Below are positions 4,508-57,671 of a stretch of 64,000 nucleotides of DNA, piece after piece (positions within the stretch are counted from its first letter, which is position 1; each line of letters starts with the position of its first letter). The stretch lies in NCBI GenBank assembly GCA_009773005.1, contig WOUT01000006.1:1-64000 (forward strand), in the 5' to 3' direction. Below the pieces are notes generated by a model that saw only the letters and a list, made by a program, of their open reading frames with translations, did no database searches and had not been told where the DNA came from. The translations under genes were made by a program, and so were the position numbers. Source of the stretch: Chloroflexota bacterium (lineage in GTDB: Bacteria; Chloroflexota; Anaerolineae; Anaerolineales; Anaerolineaceae).

Positions 4508-6169
4508 TCACTCCATACTGGTTTGAGCAACCACAAATCGGTTGCGTCCCTCATTTTTGGCACGGTACAGGGCAGAATCGGCAGCTGATAGTAGACTCTC
4601 AATCGTCTCCCCGTGTTCTGGGAAACTTGCAACCCCTATGGAAACGGTGATGGCTGGAAGTGATTCTTCCTGGTACCGTACATTCATGCGTTGGATTTCG
4701 CTATGCAATTTTTCAGTCCGCCGGAGAGTGTCGTCCAGTGAAGCCTCCGGTAAAATCAACAAGAATTCTTCGCCGCCATAGCGGCAGGGTATGTCTTCAC
4801 CTCGGAAATTCTTCTTTAATAATTCGCCCAATTCGATTAAAACTGCATCTCCGGCCGGGTGACTGTAGGTATCGTTGAAGGATTTGAAGTGATCAATATC
4901 AAGCATGATCACGCTGAGGGCCGCCTTTCGACGCGCAGCTCGATCCAACTCTCGCATGAATGTTTCCTCCATATAACGCCGGTTGAATAAGCCAGTGAGC
5001 GGATCTCGTATTGCCTGGTAGCGCAGGGTTTCCTGTAATCCAAGGTTCACCAATGCTAGCGCAGCGTGCTCGGCCACCGTCTCAGACAACTGTCGTTTCA
5101 TCATGAGGCCCTCCGCCGATTGCTTTTCCAGAGTTCGCAGAAGTTTTGGGTATCTGAAATGCAGAATGCCCAGCGTCTCGTCGTGCGCAAGCAGAGGAAC
5201 ACAAAGGTACCCATCTGGTCTGGGTTTTCCGAGTGACGGACAGAAACCGCTGTGGCTGTTCAAATCGTCAGACGAGTACAACTTCCCCAGACGCAGCGCC
5301 CAACACTCATCAGATGAAAGCGCGCAGCCAGGCAGTTGAAGCGGGGCGTCCCCCCAGGTAGCGATTGGCTCTAAAATGCCAGATGTTTTATTTAGGACAT
5401 AAAGCGCGCCGGAAACGTTTGGGAACAAACGCCTGAAGAAATTAGCAATGACGTCATAAGCTTCCGCGACGGTAAGGCAGGTTTGTAGCCGATTGCCCAT
5501 CTCGTTAAGCAGGCTTAAATCTTCCAGATGCCGGTTTTGAACTTTCTGTTTTGCGTTTGCTGCTTCAGTTGCAAGCTGGGCTTTTTGGAACCGCAAGAAT
5601 AACAGCGAGATCGAGGCGGCAGTAAGAACCAGCACAAGCGCGGAACCAATATCATCTACCTGCTCCACTTGCTCCACCTTCGCATGGTAGTGGGCACTGA
5701 CCTCGTCAAGTATTTGGATAAAAGATTCGAAGGCTGGGTCCACTTGTTCTTCGTCAAAGACCCATGCCTGGTCAAAATCGCCTTCCGAGACCAGCTTGAT
5801 CTCTTCAGAGATGGCAGAAACATAGGTTGAGTAAGCTCGGCGAACCGAAAGCAGGCCTTCTCTATCTGGGTCTAATTGCTCCAATTCCCTCAATAATTGT
5901 TCCATATCATTACGGGCGTTTTCCAAGTTCTCAACCAATTCCGTAGTGATGTGTCCTTCTCCGATGGACTGCCATTCCAAAGCAGAGAGATGATAAGCAT
6001 GAACGTTGAGGAGCAAGAGCAAATGTTCAGCACGATCGCTTTCCTTGACAATGCGCCGAAGCGCGGCATTGGCGCAGATTGCTGCCAGTGCAATAAAGAA
6101 CACCAGCATTAGAACCAGTAAACCGGAGATGCTATACTTGTTTTTTAGAGGGAAAATAGTTTCAGTCAT
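4508..6169 (-). CDS. Membrane diguanylate cyclase with GAF and GGDEF domains
   Basis: About 553 residues: a membrane segment near residues 12-35, an outside helical sensor region of about 135 residues rich in acidic heptads, a second membrane segment near 175-195, a coiled linker, a GAF domain (about 220-380) and a C-terminal GGDEF domain. The catalytic motif is RYGGEEF and the product-inhibition I-site RGED sits exactly five residues before it, so an active, feedback-inhibited c-di-GMP synthase is expected. ATG at 6169 follows AAAAGGCG; a TTG 11 codons upstream is possible. It stands alone, facing away from the nuclease gene. Confidence 0.9.
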   Translation of the reverse strand: MTETIFPLKNKYSISGLLVLMLVFFIALAAICANAALRRIVKESDRAEHLLLLLNVHAYHLSALEWQSIGEGHITTELVENLENARNDMEQLLRELEQLDPDREGLLSVRRAYSTYVSAISEEIKLVSEGDFDQAWVFDEEQVDPAFESFIQILDEVSAHYHAKVEQVEQVDDIGSALVLVLTAASISLLFLRFQKAQLATEAANAKQKVQNRHLEDLSLLNEMGNRLQTCLTVAEAYDVIANFFRRLFPNVSGALYVLNKTSGILEPIATWGDAPLQLPGCALSSDECWALRLGKLYSSDDLNSHSGFCPSLGKPRPDGYLCVPLLAHDETLGILHFRYPKLLRTLEKQSAEGLMMKRQLSETVAEHAALALVNLGLQETLRYQAIRDPLTGLFNRRYMEETFMRELDRAARRKAALSVIMLDIDHFKSFNDTYSHPAGDAVLIELGELLKKNFRGEDIPCRYGGEEFLLILPEASLDDTLRRTEKLHSEIQRMNVRYQEESLPAITVSIGVASFPEHGETIESLLSAADSALYRAKNEGRNRFVVAQTSME

Positions 6170-6743
6170 CGCCTTTTTGATTCTCTGGGCACGGTCTGCC
6201 AAACTTTATGACTTGCTTTTATCGCCTAAGCGCAGCGGCTAATTAATGTGCAACTTAGCGTTTGGTCCGATGACAAAACTTCAAATTCATCATATCATAA
6301 AAAAAAATGCAAATCTCTCGTTTTAACAACGAATCTTAACTCAAGGTTTTATTGAAGCAAGGGACCGCTGGTAAACCTTGATCGCGTGAGATAACAAGAG
6401 AATCACCATCGCTCCGTAAACATACTACTGATTTTCAGGCAACATGCTACGGATATCGAGTGGGATTGCTTTTTGGATGTTCAAGTTCAATGAGATAGAA
6501 AGCAACTCGAAACCACAGTGGCCTTTTTACCACTGTTCTCCTTTTTACCACTGTTCTCATTTCGCTTGCTTTTTTCTTATTTTTCATTACAATAAAAGGT
6601 GTCTCTTTGCAGTGGGGAACATGTACTGGGATAATGATCCAATCGCAGTACACAACTATTCCACAACCATTAATATCTCAACATAGCATAACGAAAGATT
6701 TTCTCGGCAATTCTCATACTCAATTTTTGGATGGAGGAATCGC
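6170..6743. other. Divergent intergenic region, 574 bp
   Basis: This AT-rich gap separates the diguanylate cyclase from the secreted nuclease and must hold both promoters. It contains a perfect 18-bp tandem duplication (listed separately). I see no convincing riboswitch or small gene. Confidence 0.5.
6523..6558. repeat. Perfect 18-bp tandem duplication
   Basis: CTTTTTACCACTGTTCTC occurs twice without a gap (6523-6540 and 6541-6558), about 190 bp before the nuclease start. It may be a slippage product or a doubled regulator site. Confidence 0.9.
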
Positions 6744-29647: not shown

Positions 29648-31324
29648 TTACAAGAGTCCCTTGTATTTTGGACTTTCTTCTTCCTTGTTCACATTGTGGT
29701 GCTCTGGCAAAATAATCGTAAATCGAGCGCCTTCACCGGGGCTGCTCTCAACTAATATCTGACCGCCATGCGCCTGAATGATACGGCGAACCAGCGATAG
29801 ACCAAGTCCAGTGGCCTGACCCCGGTTTTTCGTTGAAAAAAAGGGTTCAAATATTCTGTCAAGGTCCTCTTCAGTAATGCCAGAGCCAGAATCACGTACT
29901 TCTACATAAAATTTTGCATCTTCGTAATGTGTTGTGATCTTGATCTCGCCTTTTTCCATATCAATCGCTTCAATCGCATTCATAAGAAGATTGATCCATG
30001 CACCTTGAAGATGATTTGTGCTTCCCATCAATAAGGGCATGTTTTCGCCCCGATCAAACCTTATTGAGATCTTTCTGGAAAGGAATTCATGTGATACCAG
30101 CATTAAAGCAGTTTGCATTGATTCATTTAGGTCAAACGCTTCTACGTCATAACTTTCTTTGCGTACCAGTCCGAGAATATTCTTGACAACATGGTTCGCC
30201 CGGATACTTGCCATCTCGATTAACTTTACAGACTGGATCATATCCGTTTGATCAGGCGGAATATCTTGCAGCAACATTTGAGCATTCGCAAGCACTGTAG
30301 TGAGAGGGTTATTGATCTCATGGACTATGCCAGCAGCTAATTGCCCCACTGCGGCCAGTTTTTCACCCTGGATCAATTCGGCTTCCATTTTTCGTTTTTC
30401 AGTTATGTCCTGTTCGATGAGTATGACTTGCTGAGGTTTTTCTTCATTTTCGATGATCGGGTATATACTGATCTCCCATTCTAATTTGTCGCTATTATTC
30501 TTCCTGTGGTTGTCGGTTCGTTTGGAAGGATTAGACGTTTGAAAAGATTTTTCAACCAAACAACCGGTACATGGACTATTCAGACCAAACAAAACTTCGT
30601 GGCAAATCCTTCCAACCAATTCTTTTGGGAGCTTTTTAGCTCGCAGCGCGCGAGCCTGATTAATTGCATTTATTTTATAGTTTCGATCCACGATATAGAA
30701 TGCTGCCGGAATATTATCAAACAGAGTGCGGAGAGTGTTTCGCGAATGCAGTAATTGAAGTTTGCTTGCTTTTAACTCGTCTCCGGTTGATTCGACCTCA
30801 TTAATCATTTTGTGATAAAACAGATGATCTGCCAGTTTTGAAGCGAACAATGCCAATAAAGAACTCTCATGGTCATCTAAAACAGAATTTGCCAAATTGA
30901 TCAACCCAACAGATCCCAATGGAATTGAATGACTCATGAGTGGACAGGCTGTCAGCGAATGATTATTCAACCCCGCTGCAGAATCTACTGGAGGAAAATA
31001 CAAATGGTTATCCGCCAGACTGCTAACCTGGGTTATTTCATTGTTTTTGAACGATGTCCATAAGATTCCGCTTTTCACCGGGAGATTGCTTGAGACCTTC
31101 CAATCTGTTCCTTTCGTGCACTCTTTTTTGATCGTTTCTTCATGCTTTTCTTCGCTGACAAATAGCGCCACAATTGCTTCTGCGCCAAAAAAGTCTTTCA
31201 TCATTTTAAGATACTGGTGATCCGGATTTAATACATCAGACCCCTGGTTTTGTGCAATTGCAATCAACCGAAGCGCATCCCGCAAACGATCCGATTTCGA
31301 AGATTTCTGATCAGTGTCAGTCAT
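29648..31324 (-). CDS. Soluble GAF-PAS histidine kinase
   Basis: A 558-residue cytoplasmic sensor kinase: GAF domain (about 30-175), coiled linker, PAS domain (about 200-310), HisKA with phospho-acceptor H in AAGIVHEINNPL (near 345) and HATPase with NLLMNAIEAI, DSGSGI and GLGLSLV. The PAS domain has a Cys cluster (CHEV...SPCTGC, C-x11-C-x2-C) that could bind a metal or haem or sense redox state. ATG at 31324 is chosen because it follows GGAG and overlaps the stop codon of the response regulator gene (ATGACTGA), so both are co-translated. The partner is the upstream regulator. Confidence 0.92.
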   Translation of the reverse strand: MTDTDQKSSKSDRLRDALRLIAIAQNQGSDVLNPDHQYLKMMKDFFGAEAIVALFVSEEKHEETIKKECTKGTDWKVSSNLPVKSGILWTSFKNNEITQVSSLADNHLYFPPVDSAAGLNNHSLTACPLMSHSIPLGSVGLINLANSVLDDHESSLLALFASKLADHLFYHKMINEVESTGDELKASKLQLLHSRNTLRTLFDNIPAAFYIVDRNYKINAINQARALRAKKLPKELVGRICHEVLFGLNSPCTGCLVEKSFQTSNPSKRTDNHRKNNSDKLEWEISIYPIIENEEKPQQVILIEQDITEKRKMEAELIQGEKLAAVGQLAAGIVHEINNPLTTVLANAQMLLQDIPPDQTDMIQSVKLIEMASIRANHVVKNILGLVRKESYDVEAFDLNESMQTALMLVSHEFLSRKISIRFDRGENMPLLMGSTNHLQGAWINLLMNAIEAIDMEKGEIKITTHYEDAKFYVEVRDSGSGITEEDLDRIFEPFFSTKNRGQATGLGLSLVRRIIQAHGGQILVESSPGEGARFTIILPEHHNVNKEEESPKYKGLL

Positions 31325-32105
31325 TTTTCTCCATGTGAGATTCACCTCTCACTGTATATCCATACCCCGGGATTGTTTCGATAAAAGTTGGACAGGTTGG
31401 ATCGGTTTCAATCCGCATTCGTAGATTCTTGATGTGCACTCGCACCAGGTCAGGGCTGCCTGCATCGGAGGGATAATCCCAAATGACACCTAATAATCGA
31501 GCCGGTGAATAAATTTCACCGGGATGACTCATAAAATTATAAAGTAAATCATATTGAATCGGGGTAAGCAACAATTTTTTCTTATCCGGCATTGTTAATT
31601 CAAATGTCTTAATATTTAAAGAGTAGTTTCTTATCTCAATTACTGGATTGCCATCTCGTTTGTCGGCAGAATGTGAAAGATTGTTTATATTTTGTTCATC
31701 GTGTTTCTTGTCATGAACAGGATGCCGCTCAGATGTCCGGCGCAGCACTGCGCGTACCCTTAGAACTAATTCTTCAATGTTAAAAGGTTTATTAATATAG
31801 TCATCCCCTCCGGCTTTAAAACCTTTAATATGATCCTCTTCTCTCGTTTTAGCAGTTAAAAAAATGATTGGAACGTCCATTAATGCTGAATCTGCCCTCA
31901 TTTCCCGGCACACTTCATACCCATCCATTCCAGGCATTACAACATCTAGCAAAACAAGATCCGGTTTTTTCTTTCGGGCCAGTTTCAATGCCTGGACGCC
32001 AGAACTCGCCAATTCGACATTAAATTTTTCTCGATTTAAACAACGCTCAATCGTCAGAGCGACGTTATCATCATCTTCGACCAGGAGAATATTAGTACCG
32101 TCCAA
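31317..32105 (-). CDS. OmpR/PhoB-family response regulator
   Basis: A 262-residue regulator with a REC domain (acidic pocket ED-D near residues 10-12, phospho-acceptor Asp in LVLLDVVMPG near 54, Lys in INKPF near 105) and a C-terminal winged-helix DNA-binding domain (about 155-255). A polar linker of about 30 residues, rich in His, joins them. Translation begins with TTG at 32105, preceded by GAGGT at a good distance. It is the first gene of the pair with the GAF-PAS kinase. Regulators of this class bind 11-bp direct repeats like those before the MacAB-like operon at 52991, but a link is only a guess. Confidence 0.92.
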   Translation of the reverse strand: MDGTNILLVEDDDNVALTIERCLNREKFNVELASSGVQALKLARKKKPDLVLLDVVMPGMDGYEVCREMRADSALMDVPIIFLTAKTREEDHIKGFKAGGDDYINKPFNIEELVLRVRAVLRRTSERHPVHDKKHDEQNINNLSHSADKRDGNPVIEIRNYSLNIKTFELTMPDKKKLLLTPIQYDLLYNFMSHPGEIYSPARLLGVIWDYPSDAGSPDLVRVHIKNLRMRIETDPTCPTFIETIPGYGYTVRGESHMEKND

Positions 32106-52683: not shown

Positions 52684-52990
52684 TAATCACGATGAACTTT
52701 TTTTTGCATATCAGATGTATTTTCGTACCATACAACCCTCGATTCCTCGTTTCAGGACCAGGAATGAGTAAATTAGTAGCCTTGCTGTAAACTTATCCGG
52801 TCAAATTGAATCGTTATTGGTGATTGTTTTCAACGTTTTCTCAACCCAATAAATAGCAGGGTTTAAACCAAAAACTCTAATCCAATCTCTTATCGTGGAA
52901 TATTGAATTAGAGTTATCAGGCGTGTTTACCCTCAAAATAGCACAGTTATAGCTGTATCATTTTTAAAATCTCTGAATTTAAACATTCTC
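52684..52990. other. Spacer with a 14-bp stem-loop
   Basis: No gene is visible. AACTCTAATCCAAT (52873-52886) pairs with ATTGAATTAGAGTT (52902-52915) with one mismatch. It lacks a T-run and may be an old terminator or an operator. Confidence 0.45.
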
Positions 52991-53044
52991 TTCATAAATT
53001 CTTCATACATTATTCACTACTCCTTCACATCTGACTTTTATACT
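52991..53044 (+). promoter_or_regulatory. PhoB/PhoP-like four-box promoter of the MacAB-like operon
   Basis: TTCATA (52991), TTCATA (53002), TTCACT (53013) and TTCACA (53024) repeat with an exact 11-bp period, and TATACT (53039-53044) follows 9 bp after the last box. This matches the layout of PhoP/PhoB-type activated promoters, where the boxes replace the -35 element. No good -35 is present at 17 bp. An OmpR-family response regulator is expected to bind here. Confidence 0.7.
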
Positions 53045-53077
53045 TTTGAAGTCAACTGATTATTAGAAGGAGTGATA

Positions 53078-54493
53078 ATGAAAAAATCTTTACTTAAACA
53101 TCGTCCTGTTTGGCTTCTCGCTGGCTTATTGTTGGTAGCCAGCATCGCAGGAATTATCTACTGGACTCAATCTGTGGCAAGCGCGGCTGAAACAACAGCC
53201 CCTGTATTGCAAACATCCAAAGTTCGCACAGGCGACCTTGTAGTCAGCGCTAGCGGAAGTGGAAACGTCCTCTCATCCGCACAAGCTGACCTGGGTTTCC
53301 GCAGTAATGGCATCGTAGCTGAAGTATACGTAACTTCCAGCCAACAGGTTAAAAAAGGGGATATTCTCGCCAGCCTTGATAACACTTCTCAAAAAATCGC
53401 TTTTACCCAGGCTGAAGCTACCATAAAAACACTGTTTTCCGAAGCGGGTATTGCCGCTTACCAAATTGAAGCCGTCAACGCAGAAATTGCATATAACGAT
53501 GCCCTTGGTCAATCCTATACATTGAATAAACCAGTTGGTTCGTCCGACTATATTGCGATTCTAAGATCTGCGTACCTTACTGCTCAAGACAAGGTAGTAA
53601 CTGCTGAAGAAAACTTCAACCGCTATGTAGAAACTCCTGATGGTGACATTCGCAAAGCGCAAGCATTGGCCTCTCTGGCACAAGCTCGAATTGATTTGAA
53701 GGGCGCCAAAGCGAATTTAGCTTATTACGAAAGTAATCCCGATACACTAGACTCGGTATCCATTCAAGCGAACCTGGATCTCGCCGAAGCCAAAATGAAC
53801 GATGCTCAGACCGCGCTTGCTATTTTGAAAGCAGGGGATCCCGAGGCTCTGGAACAAACACTTGCTGCTGCAGATGGCACCTCGCTGGAAAAACTCAAAT
53901 TGGAATACCTCGCGTATGAAAATGCCCGCATTGCGCTTGAAAATACTCGGCTGATCGCGCCTTTTGACGGTGTCGTTATCAATCTAAATCTTGTTCCCGG
54001 ACAAAGCGTTAGCGCCAACCCGGTTTTAACCCTCGCCGCATTGGAATCTTTTCAGGTTAAATTTTTTATGGACGAAACTGACCTGGCCGGTCTTGCTGTT
54101 GGTAACCGGGTTGTTTACACATTCAATGCCTACCCTGAAACCAGCCTGGATGGCAAAGTCACTCTTATTGAACGAGCCCTTCAAACAGTAGATGGCTCCC
54201 CGGTTGTTGTTGTTTGGGGTTCCCTGCCAGAGCGTCCTTCATTCACCCTGCTGGCAGGTATGACTGTTGATGTGGAAGTGATTGCTGGCGAAGCTCAGAA
54301 AACTCTGATCGTTCCAGTACAAGCCCTGCGTGAACTTAGTCCTGGTTCATTTGCGGTCTTTGTTGTTCAATCTGATAGTTCACTCAAACTCACCCCCGTC
54401 ACAATTGGGTTGCGTGATTTTGCGAATGCTGAAATTCTAAGCGGTCTCAAAATGGGTGATGTGGTCAGCACCGGCACTGTTGAAACAAAATAA
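53078..54493 (+). CDS. MacA-like membrane fusion protein
   Basis: A 471-residue RND/HlyD-type adaptor with an N-terminal anchor helix (about 9-28), a biotinyl-lipoyl-like half (GSGNVLSSAQADLGF and VKKGDILASLDNTSQ, near 52-105), a long helical hairpin (about 110-260), the second lipoyl half (LIAPFDGVVINLNLVPGQ, near 288) and beta-barrel domains. ATG at 53078 follows AAGGAG. It is followed by an ABC ATPase and an FtsX-like permease, the MacAB arrangement of exporters acting outside the membrane. Confidence 0.92.
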   Translation: MKKSLLKHRPVWLLAGLLLVASIAGIIYWTQSVASAAETTAPVLQTSKVRTGDLVVSASGSGNVLSSAQADLGFRSNGIVAEVYVTSSQQVKKGDILASLDNTSQKIAFTQAEATIKTLFSEAGIAAYQIEAVNAEIAYNDALGQSYTLNKPVGSSDYIAILRSAYLTAQDKVVTAEENFNRYVETPDGDIRKAQALASLAQARIDLKGAKANLAYYESNPDTLDSVSIQANLDLAEAKMNDAQTALAILKAGDPEALEQTLAAADGTSLEKLKLEYLAYENARIALENTRLIAPFDGVVINLNLVPGQSVSANPVLTLAALESFQVKFFMDETDLAGLAVGNRVVYTFNAYPETSLDGKVTLIERALQTVDGSPVVVVWGSLPERPSFTLLAGMTVDVEVIAGEAQKTLIVPVQALRELSPGSFAVFVVQSDSSLKLTPVTIGLRDFANAEILSGLKMGDVVSTGTVETK

Positions 54494-54507: not shown

Positions 54508-55236
54508 ATGAACTCCCTTATAGAAATCAAAGAATTGACCAAAGTTTACGGCGAAGAAGAAGCCACGGTTTATGCTCTGGCAGGTGTAGATGTTCAAGTG
54601 AAAAAAGGTGAATTCGTCGCTATTATGGGTCCCTCTGGGTCCGGCAAATCTACCTTAATGAATATCCTCGGTTGTCTCGATCGACCTTCTACTGGTACAT
54701 ATTTTTTAGATGGTCGCGATGTGAGCCAGTTGAGTAAAAACCAACTGGCCGAAGTCCGCAACCAGAAACTGGGTTTTATTTTTCAATCGTTCAACCTTCT
54801 CCCGCGTTTGAGCGCATTAGCAAACGTGATGCTGCCAATGCTCTACAACCCGCTTGATGACATCGATGATACTGAAGCCAGATCCCGTGCAGTAGATTCA
54901 CTGGAATCGGTTGGATTGGGCGCTCGCATGCACCATCGTCCCAACCAACTTTCAGGCGGGCAGCAACAGCGCGTAGCAATTGCCCGTGCACTGGTTAACC
55001 GACCGCCGCTCATTTTGGCAGATGAACCTACCGGTAACCTGGATTCAAAATCCAGCCTCGAAATCATGGATATTTTACAAAATCTACATAGTAATGGAGC
55101 AACGATAGTGATGGTCACCCACGAACAAGATATTGCCCATCGCGCTGAACGAGTCATTTGTGTTAAGGATGGCTTGATTCTCTCTGATGGTCACGGCGGT
55201 AAAAACCCCTGCTTGGGAAGGAAGGAATTGCAATGA
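54508..55236 (+). CDS. MacB-type ABC exporter ATPase
   Basis: A 242-residue ATPase of the LolD/MacB group: Walker [10 protein letters not shown] (near 40), Q-loop [12 protein letters not shown], signature [15 protein letters not shown] (near 147) and Walker [13 protein letters not shown] (near 168). It powers the FtsX-type permease encoded next, with which it overlaps by 4 nt. The substrate may be an outside peptide or lipoprotein. Confidence 0.95.
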
Positions 55237-56444
55237 ACCCTAATAAAATTCTTCGCTCAGCCTGGGAAGGCTTGATGCTCAATAAAGTCCGTTCTTTCCT
55301 CACCACACTGGGTGTAATAATCGGTGTCGCTTCTGTCATCATCATGCTTGCAGTGAGCGCTGGAACCGAGGCTGCGATAGCTGAACAGATTAATGCATTG
55401 GGGGCGAACCTGATTATTGTTTCACCGGCTCGAGGTGTTCCAGGCGCTTCACGCACGCTTTTAATCGATGACGCTTACGCTATCGCAGAACAGGTCGTTG
55501 GAATCACCGGTATCTCTGCCGAACAAGCCCCAGCCGCCCAGACTGTCAAAGCCAATGACATCACACTTGACTCGATCGCTGTGGTCGGTACAACAGCCGA
55601 ATTTCCTGAAGTACGCGATTATACCGTTGCTTCAGGGCGATATTTCGACTTAGGCGAAGATGATCGGAAAGCAAAAGTTGCTGTCCTTGGAGCGGGAATC
55701 GCAACCGATCTGTTTGGCACAAACGAACCGCTTGGTCAAACTGTCACTGTTGGATCTACAAAACTGACCATCATCGGTGTAATGGAATCCAAAGGTATGG
55801 TAGCTGATGTTGACTATGATGGCCGAATTTATCTACCGATTAATTTGGTCTTTCAAAAATATATGACAGTCATGACAATCGGCGGAGATCGTGTGAGAAC
55901 GATTTACGTCAAGGCTGAGAGTCAGGAAAAAATTTCAAGCATTATTACTCAAATCACAACCGTTCTTGCCGAGCGCCATGATGTGGATCCTACAAAACCG
56001 GATTTCACAGTTCAAACCCAGCAAGATATCATCGCCACACAAGAAGCCACCACAGCAGCATTCCGTGACTTGTTGGCATGGGTGGCGGGCATCTCTCTTG
56101 TCGTCGGCGGCATCGGAATTATGAATATCATGTTAGTCAGTGTCACTGAACGTACCCGTGAAATAGGGCTGCGTCAGGCACTCGGTGCACGCCCATCTGA
56201 TGTCTTGCTCCAATTCCTGCTCGAAGCCGTAATTCTTAGCCTGGCAGGCGGGTTGGTTGGCATCGCAGCAGGTGTGGGCGGTTCCTATTTGTTTGGCGCA
56301 CTCGGAACCATGCAGACCGCAATAGTACCTGCATCCATCCCGGTAGCCTTTGGCGCTGCCGCTATCGTCGGCATCTTCTTCGGCTATTACCCAGCCACCC
56401 AAGCCGCCAAGCTTGACCCTATTGTCGCTCTGCGGCACGAATAA
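55233..56444 (+). CDS. MacB-type FtsX-family permease
   Basis: A 403-residue permease with one N-terminal helix, a large outside MacB_PCD domain (about 45-260) and three C-terminal helices (FtsX domain; ISLVVGGIGIMNIMLVSVTERTREIG near 285-310). This is the usual four-helix MacB topology. It uses mechanical coupling of ATP hydrolysis to the outside domain. The ATPase is separate rather than fused as in E. coli MacB. Confidence 0.94.
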   Translation: MNPNKILRSAWEGLMLNKVRSFLTTLGVIIGVASVIIMLAVSAGTEAAIAEQINALGANLIIVSPARGVPGASRTLLIDDAYAIAEQVVGITGISAEQAPAAQTVKANDITLDSIAVVGTTAEFPEVRDYTVASGRYFDLGEDDRKAKVAVLGAGIATDLFGTNEPLGQTVTVGSTKLTIIGVMESKGMVADVDYDGRIYLPINLVFQKYMTVMTIGGDRVRTIYVKAESQEKISSIITQITTVLAERHDVDPTKPDFTVQTQQDIIATQEATTAAFRDLLAWVAGISLVVGGIGIMNIMLVSVTERTREIGLRQALGARPSDVLLQFLLEAVILSLAGGLVGIAAGVGGSYLFGALGTMQTAIVPASIPVAFGAAAIVGIFFGYYPATQAAKLDPIVALRHE

Positions 56445-56472: not shown

Positions 56473-57057
56473 ATGATACGCGTTCACCTACCGATTTTAC
56501 TTATTTTATCTGCCTTGCTTCTGACAGCTTGTGGATCAAACTCCACACCGCCACCTGCTCTGGCTGTGGATACCGAATCTGCGCCTCAGTCTGTTATCAA
56601 TAATGACACCACTACCAAAAACATTGACCGGGTTGCGGTCGATACCAATTATGAAAATGCTCTCACACCACGCTTGCTGCTCGCTTTCGGTTCATTGAAG
56701 CTGGCGGAGACTCAAACAGTAATCACTTCCGAACAAGCGCCTCAGTTGATCATGCTTTGGCAGGCGCTTGATAACCTGACAAACTCTGGAACAAGCGCTG
56801 TGGAAGAGGTAGACGCTCTGCTTTTACAAATCGAGTCAACCTTAAGCTCTGAGCAAGTAAGCACCATCAACACCATGAAACTAACCCAGGTGGAACTGCA
56901 AGCATGGGCGCAAGCCAACGGTGTGACCATGGGCTCTGGTGCCGGAGGGGGACAGGGACAAGGTCAGGGGCAGGGTATGTCGCCTGAAGCCCGCGCCACA
57001 AAACAGGCAGCAGATGGAAGAACTGGCGTCACTCCCAACAGCAATAACCTATCTTGA
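56473..57057 (+). CDS. Lipoprotein, first of a paralogous pair
   Basis: A 194-residue lipoprotein with signal LLLTACGSN (lipid-bearing Cys at residue 20). The domain (about 60-150) has YENALTPRLLLAFGSLKLAET and EVDALLLQIESTLSSEQV, and is matched piece by piece in the next gene. The tail is Gly/Gln-rich (GGGQGQGQGQGM). It follows the MacB-like permease by 28 nt. It may be a substrate-binding or chaperone part of that exporter; the function is not established. Confidence 0.82.
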   Translation: MIRVHLPILLILSALLLTACGSNSTPPPALAVDTESAPQSVINNDTTTKNIDRVAVDTNYENALTPRLLLAFGSLKLAETQTVITSEQAPQLIMLWQALDNLTNSGTSAVEEVDALLLQIESTLSSEQVSTINTMKLTQVELQAWAQANGVTMGSGAGGGQGQGQGQGMSPEARATKQAADGRTGVTPNSNNLS

Positions 57058-57080
57058 AACGATCAAATAAGGAGAAAATC

Positions 57081-57671
57081 ATGAAAAAAACTCGATTCTT
57101 GCTTCCATTGCTTGCGTTTGTCCTGCTGCTCTCTGCCTGTTCCTCGGCAGCTCCATCTACTTCCACCGAGCCTACCTCGATCGCTGGGGTGTATCTGGAC
57201 ACTGAATATATTGACGCTGTCAGCCTGCGCAATCAACTAGCCTATGGCACGATCAAACTTGCTGAAACCTCTGATGCCGTTACTGCTGAACAAGCAACAA
57301 ACCTCATCCCGCTTTGGCAAGGCATCATCGCCCTCAGTGGTGACACAACCACTGCCAGCGAAGAATTGATTGCCATTCAAGACCAGATCACAACAACCTT
57401 GACGCCTGAACAATTGAAAACTATTGCTGAAATGCAGATCACCAACGCTGAGCTGAATTCATTCTATGCAGAATTTGGTGTTGTCCTCCCTACTCCTATC
57501 CCCGGAGTCACCAAAGTACCCGGTTCAGGTAGTAGCAAAACGGAAGCCGAAAAAGCTGCTGCTCGAGCTACCGCTGAAGCAGCAGGTCAGACCACTGGCA
57601 CTGGTCAATCAGCTAAGACCTTGTTGTTTGAGAAGGTCATCGAATACTTATCGGAAATTGGTAAATCATAG
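57081..57671 (+). CDS. Lipoprotein, second of a paralogous pair
   Basis: A 196-residue lipoprotein (signal LLLSACSSA) paralogous to the gene before it: YIDAVSLRNQLAYGTIKLAET, then IPLWQGI and LTPEQLKTIAEMQIT line up with the first copy. ATG at 57081 follows AAGGAGAAAATC and gives a proper signal peptide; an upstream ATG gives a charged leader. The Ala/Lys-rich tail differs from the Gly/Gln tail of its sibling. It closes the MacAB-like operon. Confidence 0.84.
   Translation: MKKTRFLLPLLAFVLLLSACSSAAPSTSTEPTSIAGVYLDTEYIDAVSLRNQLAYGTIKLAETSDAVTAEQATNLIPLWQGIIALSGDTTTASEELIAIQDQITTTLTPEQLKTIAEMQITNAELNSFYAEFGVVLPTPIPGVTKVPGSGSSKTEAEKAAARATAEAAGQTTGTGQSAKTLLFEKVIEYLSEIGKS

Follow-up and report, generated by a model that had tools for sequence, protein, structure and literature searches.

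A predicted OmpR/PhoB-type array before a MacAB-like exporter operon in an Anaerolineaceae genome and its candidate BaeR-like reader

The exporter operon and the array before it

The window, i.e., the whole stretch of 64,000 nucleotides that was analyzed, lies on contig C11 of the 2.86-Mb draft genome of a Chloroflexota bacterium (97.5% complete, 105 contigs). This genome is designated G000 and its relatives carry other G numbers; contigs and loci are given as C and L, respectively. The following features were assigned in the window:

52991-52995, plus strand: TTCAT, box 1 (from the sequence)
53002-53006, plus strand: TTCAT, box 2 (from the sequence)
53013-53017, plus strand: TTCAC, box 3 (from the sequence)
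53024-53028, plus strand: TTCAC, box 4 (from the sequence)
52991..53028, plus strand: array of four TTCAY boxes in 11-bp steps, predicted operator for two head-to-tail OmpR/PhoB-family dimers
53039..53044, plus strand: TATACT, predicted -10 (from the sequence and the gap statistics of fetched loci)
53067..53072, plus strand: AAGGAG ribosome-binding site preceding the ATG at 53078 (from the sequence)
53078..54493, plus strand: membrane-fusion adaptor, MacA/HlyD-like (PF16576, PF13437; TIGR01730 RND_mfp above cut-off)
54508..55236, plus strand: ABC ATPase, MacB/LolD-like (PF00005; best NCBIfam model MacB, below cut-off)
55233..56444, plus strand: MacB-like FtsX permease (PF12704, PF02687)
56473..57057, plus strand: predicted lipoprotein 1, lipobox LLTAC (from the sequence)
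57054..57671, plus strand: predicted lipoprotein 2, lipobox LLSAC (from the sequence; the ATG is more likely at 57081)

Given that the gaps between adaptor, ATPase, permease, lipoprotein 1 and lipoprotein 2 are only 14, -4, 28 and -4 bases, the five genes are read as one operon. It resembles MacAB-TolC in its adaptor, ATPase and MacB_PCD/FtsX permease but differs in that ATPase and permease are separate genes (261.6 and 219.6 bits versus the 966 bits of the fused ATPase-permease model, MacB NF007826) and in the two paralogous lipoproteins downstream, which are 33% identical. Lipoprotein 1 has no Pfam or NCBIfam match, and lipoprotein 2 has no NCBIfam match and no Pfam match above cut-off; the lipoprotein structure model is helical (mean pLDDT 71.2), with no Foldseek match at E 0.001 or better (31 rows) and none above Z 5.0. 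The window permease is 76-87% identical to seven orthologues, and in the identical set of seven loci the adaptor is far less conserved (36-69%).

The first-pass annotation had described four boxes at an exact 11-bp period, followed by a -10 at 9 bp and lacking a -35 element, and had seen in this the layout of OmpR-class activators. The description holds: the boxes keep the 11-bp period from 52991 to 53028, with a possible fifth, weaker register (TAAAC) at 52980, and the -10 follows at 9 bp if counted from TTCACA or at 10 bp if counted from TTCAC. On the plus strand, no sigma-70-type promoter was found from 52600 to the ATG at 53078, and the DNA upstream of the adaptor gene is AT-rich. The layout is that of OmpR/PhoB-class promoters, in which 11-bp direct repeats replace the -35 region, and the distance from the last half-site to the -10 is that of pstS. 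In E. coli K-12, the pstS promoter reads GTCAT, GTCAT, TACAT, GTCAC at 11 bp, followed after 10 bp by TATTTT, so that the geometry matches to the base: 11-bp direct repeats, four half-sites and a -10 lying 10 bp past the last TCAY. PHO boxes are described in PMC4415409 as direct repeats of 11 nt whose letters are species-specific (GTTCACC in S. coelicolor), and the PhoB dimer modelled on DNA in PMC3348028 contacts alpha, beta and sigma from sites that overlap the -35 region. By analogy with PhoB, two phosphorylated OmpR/PhoB-family dimers would bind the four boxes head to tail, occupy the would-be -35 position and recruit sigma region 4, whereupon transcription would begin from TATACT.

Recurrence of the array and its downstream genes

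Within the window, the four-box pattern with at most three mismatches was found in three registers, all within the array (shuffle mean 0.10). A scan of the genome for further arrays, which had been proposed together with the initial description of the site, finds others: across the 2.86 Mb of G000, three exact boxes occur in the window array and at C30:20357 only, and the reversed three-box pattern has no match. The two-box pattern with a -10 (TTCAY-N6-TTCAY-N10-TANNNT) gives 5 exact matches in G000 versus 0 for its reversed form, 29 versus 19 if one mismatch is allowed, 39 versus 3 in 12 genomes of the genus, and 110 versus 22 across 61 genomes of relatives, where the 110 sites count overlapping registers (G013 C38, G000 C30) and near-copies (G019, G007). 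Two of the one-mismatch matches were rejected as promoters by ORF position, C62:23593 being inside a coding gene and C79:172751 overlapping genes on the opposite strand. An exact TTCAY-N6-TTCAY-N10-TATATT at C80:9145-9176 of G000 also lies within a coding gene and is probably due to chance.

The spacing of TTCAY pairs in 1.2 Mb of fetched loci, partly selected for carrying arrays, peaks at 11 (60 pairs), 33 (42) and 22 (40), with 37 and 38 pairs at 9 and 24. In the same loci, TANNNT follows the 11-bp box pairs at a gap of 10 in 26 of 60 cases and at a gap of 21, one box further, in 12, with at most 3 at each remaining gap in the range from 3 to 23. The orthologous exporter genes of relatives carry sites as well: G013 keeps four boxes, one of them TTCAG, and G004 and G008 keep two each. 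That the repeat arose by chance, or is AT-rich promoter DNA without a specific reader, would suit the AT-rich region upstream of the gene but is contradicted by the shuffles, the reversed-pattern controls and the conservation before orthologues, and we consider it extremely improbable. The array is very probably a genuine switch that, judging from these comparisons, recurs before a few shared cell-envelope genes in related bacteria.

A 54-position matrix was built from 31 sites of relatives, none from G000, and run over 399 kb of G000, including loci brought in by pattern. The window array ranked first (53.1), followed by the C30 gene for a secreted protein (45.0), the C83 gene for a DUF4405 protein (37.8) and the C28 gene for a DUF4405-like protein with an ABC exporter downstream of it (33.6). 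No further distinct place scored above 18.2. The C83 protein reaches 56.4 bits with DUF4405, above the cut-off of 26.7, and the C28 protein 23.8 bits, below it. A purified DUF4405 protein of another phylum is reported in PMC11334425 to have bound heme b.

The readout of downstream genes covered 36 of the 39 genus sites. Four of the 36 overlap a long ORF, namely the two C30 registers (at the 3' end of the upstream gene), the C80 site and the L293 site (at the very start of an ORF whose true start is probably later). For 30 of the remaining 32, an ORF starts 5-134 bp downstream, for one it starts 344 bp downstream, and one has no ORF behind it. According to family assignments for which one member per family was tested, small secreted proteins of one family are downstream of 11 rows (9 arrays), a linked group of DUF4405, DUF2202 and related proteins downstream of 9 sites, exporter adaptors downstream of 2, and polyferredoxins (Fer4_5) also downstream of 2, each polyferredoxin gene being divergent from a secreted-protein gene with its own array; further pairs of sites precede PepSY-like, zinc-ribbon and lipoprotein genes. 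In view of this distribution of sites, the window array is one site of a predicted regulon. At L303 (G012) and L307 (G013), two TTCAY arrays share an intergenic region, one for each of the divergent genes, whose products are a secreted protein of 193 aa and a Fer4_5 polyferredoxin.

The regulator that would read the array

In five relatives (G013, G009, G012, G001 and G006), the secreted-protein gene with its array is followed by a regulator and a kinase gene. A search with the G013 regulator yielded 87 regulators, 15 of them with an exact same-strand site at most 2.5 kb upstream. Sorted by identity to the G013 regulator, these are 11 of 18 at or above 60%, 2 of 27 at 55-59%, 1 of 29 at 50-54% and 1 of 13 at lower identity. 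None of 99 other OmpR-type regulators (101 rows outside this reader-clade search, minus two clade members) has a site within this distance. In G000, contig C105 encodes a regulator (RR_L004, L091 7433-8116) and its kinase, with mfd and uvrB as flanking genes (the pair is at L091 6041-8161). In a tree of 64 regulators, RR_L004 falls in a clade of 22 rows (support 100/95), 16 of which are array-linked, 12 by an exact site and four (G021, G017, G007 and G043) by a looser scan; in G007 and G017, the array precedes the neighbouring secreted-protein gene and not the regulator operon. Of the 19 regulators whose genes adjoin exporters of this kind, 17 fall in the neighbouring clade (100/100), and those of G022 and of G000 itself (RR_L006) branch just outside it. 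The node joining the two clades is weak (92/65), and the array-linked rows G050 and G058 are placed in the exporter-side clade. In the stretch that we take, from PhoB structures, to be the recognition helix, RR_L004 shows no difference from the G012 regulator and a single conservative one from those of G009 and G013.

By sequence, the nearest solved relative of RR_L004 is BaeR (4b09, E 3e-56). BaeR NF007982 is the best of the models listed for the regulator (238.9 bits, cut-off 380) and BaeS NF012163 the best of those listed for the kinase (254.6 bits, cut-off 500); with PhoB TIGR02154, RR_L004 scores 233.3 bits, below the cut-off of 296.2. Several observations speak against RR_L004 as the reader: its operon has no array upstream; G004, whose assembly is 80% complete, has four sites and the exporter and no match in the reader-clade search; and in G015, which has two sites, the sole regulator in that search adjoins an exporter. 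The scores below the cut-offs weigh against it as well, as do the exact C80 site within a coding gene and the position of the array in G007 and G017. G011 has neither sites nor such a regulator. The regulator gene of the window itself (31317-32105) is not among the two G000 matches of the search. A scan for autoregulation at regulator gene starts was uninformative, because most of these genes have others ahead of them in the operon. On the available sequences, the reader here is most likely a two-component system that senses stress, other than the phosphate one, and in G000 it would most likely be the BaeR-like C105 regulator together with its kinase.

Phosphate, one of the signals named in the first-pass annotation, was not borne out. 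The phosphate operon of G000, phoB-phoR-pstSCAB-phoU, lies on C39 (PhoU was named by Pfam, the others from gene order and sequence). Its pstS promoter reads TTAAC/TTAAC/TTTTT/TTAAC, followed after 10 bp by TACGAT, and in G013, G004 and G008 the homologous pst promoters likewise show TTAAC-type arrays of equal layout; a look at phosphate genes, likewise proposed there, thus finds the geometry of the window array but not its box letters. Since the pst boxes are TTAAC and the window boxes TTCAY, one geometry with different letters would serve different regulators. The window boxes also differ from the GTCAY of the E. coli pho box, and the genes behind window-type arrays are non-phosphate genes, unlike those of the E. 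coli pho regulon. Phosphate control of the exporter was rejected on account of the TTAAC-type pst boxes in the four genomes. That PhoB (RR_L002) reads the array as a Pho box, with the exporter answering phosphate starvation, is very improbable: the geometry is indeed identical to that of E. coli pstS, and, among the regulators compared, RR_L002 is the sole ordinary one that is reciprocal-best in all four close-exporter genomes, but it branches outside the array-linked clade and is itself among the 99 regulators without a site within 2.5 kb upstream. This reciprocal comparison covered 30 of 41 regulator matches in three relatives (10 of 18 in G013, 10 of 10 in G004, 10 of 13 in G008), with the row of the window regulator (C11) excluded.

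The other regulator with a reciprocal best match in those four genomes is an atypical receiver-like protein on C80 (L095 about 5755-6329). It starts with ILLIEGKRTDHPS and lacks the usual acidic pair; in G000 it reads as 128 aa, the DNA-binding domain being encoded in a different frame, and its relatives have 234-244 aa with a winged helix.

A second regulator with a comparable promoter is RR_L001, encoded on C4 (L089 5849-8609) in an operon with a Met-rich 264-aa protein and a kinase. The promoter of this operon is TTTAC/TTTAG/TTCAC/TTTAA, followed after 10 bp by TAAACT, and its boxes are about one letter from those of the window. That RR_L001 reads the array, or shares the site with another regulator, strikes us as rather unlikely. 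In G047, an RR_L001 orthologue with its kinase adjoins the exporter, the orthologue's promoter has four TTTAY boxes and the last two boxes of the exporter are TTTAC, and TTCAY sites occur in G015 and G003 at genes for PepSY-like proteins, a kind that the RR_L001 operon also encodes. Against this, the RR_L001 promoter scores 16.1 in the matrix versus 53.1 for the window, RR_L001 lies outside the array-linked clade, and G013, G004 and G008 keep the TTCAC array although their best RR_L001 matches are at about 50% identity, like unrelated regulators. As the sole reader, RR_L001 was rejected, having no close orthologue in these three genomes. RR_L006, on C33, was rejected as well, since its own exporter operon has TTCGA/TCGAC/TGCAT/TGCAC boxes and its recognition helix differs.

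Two regulator types are set apart here: one between mfd and uvrB, with a kinase, in G000, G003, G008 and G010, and one called L131 type in G001, G006, G009, G012 and G013. In the reader-clade search, the two types were not found together in any of these nine genomes. The L131-type regulator lies beside the secreted-protein gene in its five genomes (87-100% identical to that of G013), and G000 being a draft of 105 contigs at 97.5% completeness, the reader could be an L131-type regulator missing from the assembly. We regard this as improbable, given that the C30 secreted-protein gene is present, with about 20 kb of contig ahead of it and 46 kb behind, without an adjoining regulator-kinase pair, and that in G003, G008 and G010, too, the reader-clade search gave the mfd-linked type and none of the L131 type.

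Likeness to BaeSR and box letters of paralogous systems

With the C105 regulator as the preferred reader, the system can be compared with BaeSR. In enterobacteria, the BaeSR core regulon is given in PMC3160322 as spy, mdtA and acrD, i.e., exporter and small periplasmic protein, and PMC4498774 places MacAB-TolC of A. baumannii under BaeSR control. The candidate pair of G000 matches BaeR and BaeS best, and the array is common to exporter and small secreted-protein genes, which may be under the control of one regulator. The differences are that both candidates score below the BaeR and BaeS cut-offs, that the exporter here is of the ABC type and there of the RND type, and that redox proteins are among the targets; moreover, any likeness of the secreted protein to Spy would be conjectural, and neither lipoprotein nor the G013 secreted protein has a Pfam match above cut-off, be it to the Spy/LTXXQ family or to another. 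Since the best models are BaeR and BaeS, below cut-off, and BaeSR controls exporters and a small periplasmic protein, the system would work like BaeSR, without orthology being implied. Of the signals first suggested, envelope stress or another two-component signal fits best, as the candidate pair scores highest to BaeR/BaeS, if below the cut-offs, and the targets suggest envelope or redox stress.

Taken as a whole, we think it probable that the array is the operator of an activator-dependent exporter promoter, read by the BaeR-like regulator of C105 within a BaeSR-like stress system. In this scheme, the C105 regulator and its kinase would act on the exporter array, a step less certain than activation as such, and the regulator would also control the small secreted protein of C30, the DUF4405 cytochrome-like protein of C83 and, via a weaker site, the DUF4405-like protein of C28 with the ABC exporter downstream of it. 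As in BaeSR, envelope or redox stress would induce expression of an exporter and of small periplasmic proteins. In this way, a single suspected promoter would lead to a regulon that is open to testing and has a candidate regulator named for it. That regulon would place an exporter family, small secreted proteins and membrane proteins resembling cytochromes under one signal; because all are linked to it, the function of each target helps to guess those of the others. To our knowledge, the two-component systems of this phylum are little studied. Searches of open PMC papers gave no published account of the regulon, code or regulator in this phylum, whereas the operator type and the regulator family are of known kinds.

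The exporter survey comprised 57 loci, of which 52 have a permease (L241, L246 and L248 were dropped, and L279 and L280 are not exporter loci); the 52 include one duplicate, L161 repeating L249. Among the FtsX matches listed from named genomes, the useful ones, L161-L164, are at 68-77%, 61% and 53% identity, one being partial. The close matches that bear names come from Chloroflexota, one of them from Leptolinea, which points to a member of the Anaerolineales. Regulators of the wider clade are found at 19 of the 52 loci, 14 alongside the exporter and five divergent. The exporter array is TTCAC x4 in L252 and TTCAT x3 with TTCAA in L257, family f12 (L243-L245, L250, L251 and L049) has mixed TTTAY-rich boxes, and CACAG boxes occur four times in L270 and twice in L268. 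A scan score of at least 16 was reached by 21 of 46 exporter upstreams, 25 of 306 other intergenic upstreams (some of the 25 being before exporter or regulator genes) and 21 of 920 Markov shuffles; this score was devised after several arrays had been seen and is not blind. As only 21 of 46 reach 16, many exporter promoters have no array visible to the scan.

Judging from the box letters, paralogous systems seem to use an equal grammar with other letters, and a reading rule made of box letters and fixed spacing tells apart parallel systems within one genome. A broader proposition, to which we give about an even chance, is that of an order-wide promoter grammar, in which four boxes in 11-bp steps are followed after 10 bp by the -10, shared by many paralogous two-component systems, with specificity almost only in the five-letter box and TTCAY marking an undescribed envelope-redox stress regulon. 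The codes may then be TTAAC for phosphate, TTCAY for the BaeR-like regulator, TTTAY for RR_L001, TCGAC/TGCAY for the C33 exporter, whose array is weak, and CACAG for two f12 genomes. If true, regulons could be read from raw sequence, and the TTCAY code would join the MacAB-like exporter to DUF4405-type cytochromes and polyferredoxin.

The paralogous exporter operon of G000 on C33 (L042 3198-9371) encodes its own regulator and kinase; its promoter has the boxes TTCGA/TCGAC/TGCAT/TGCAC at 11 bp, followed after 10 bp by TATCTT, a weak array with a scan score of 13.3. At L159 about 380-480 (C101, G000), a stretch that begins with CACCTCTTTCACATGTTAAAATTGAAGT occurs as a direct repeat before a gene at the contig end.
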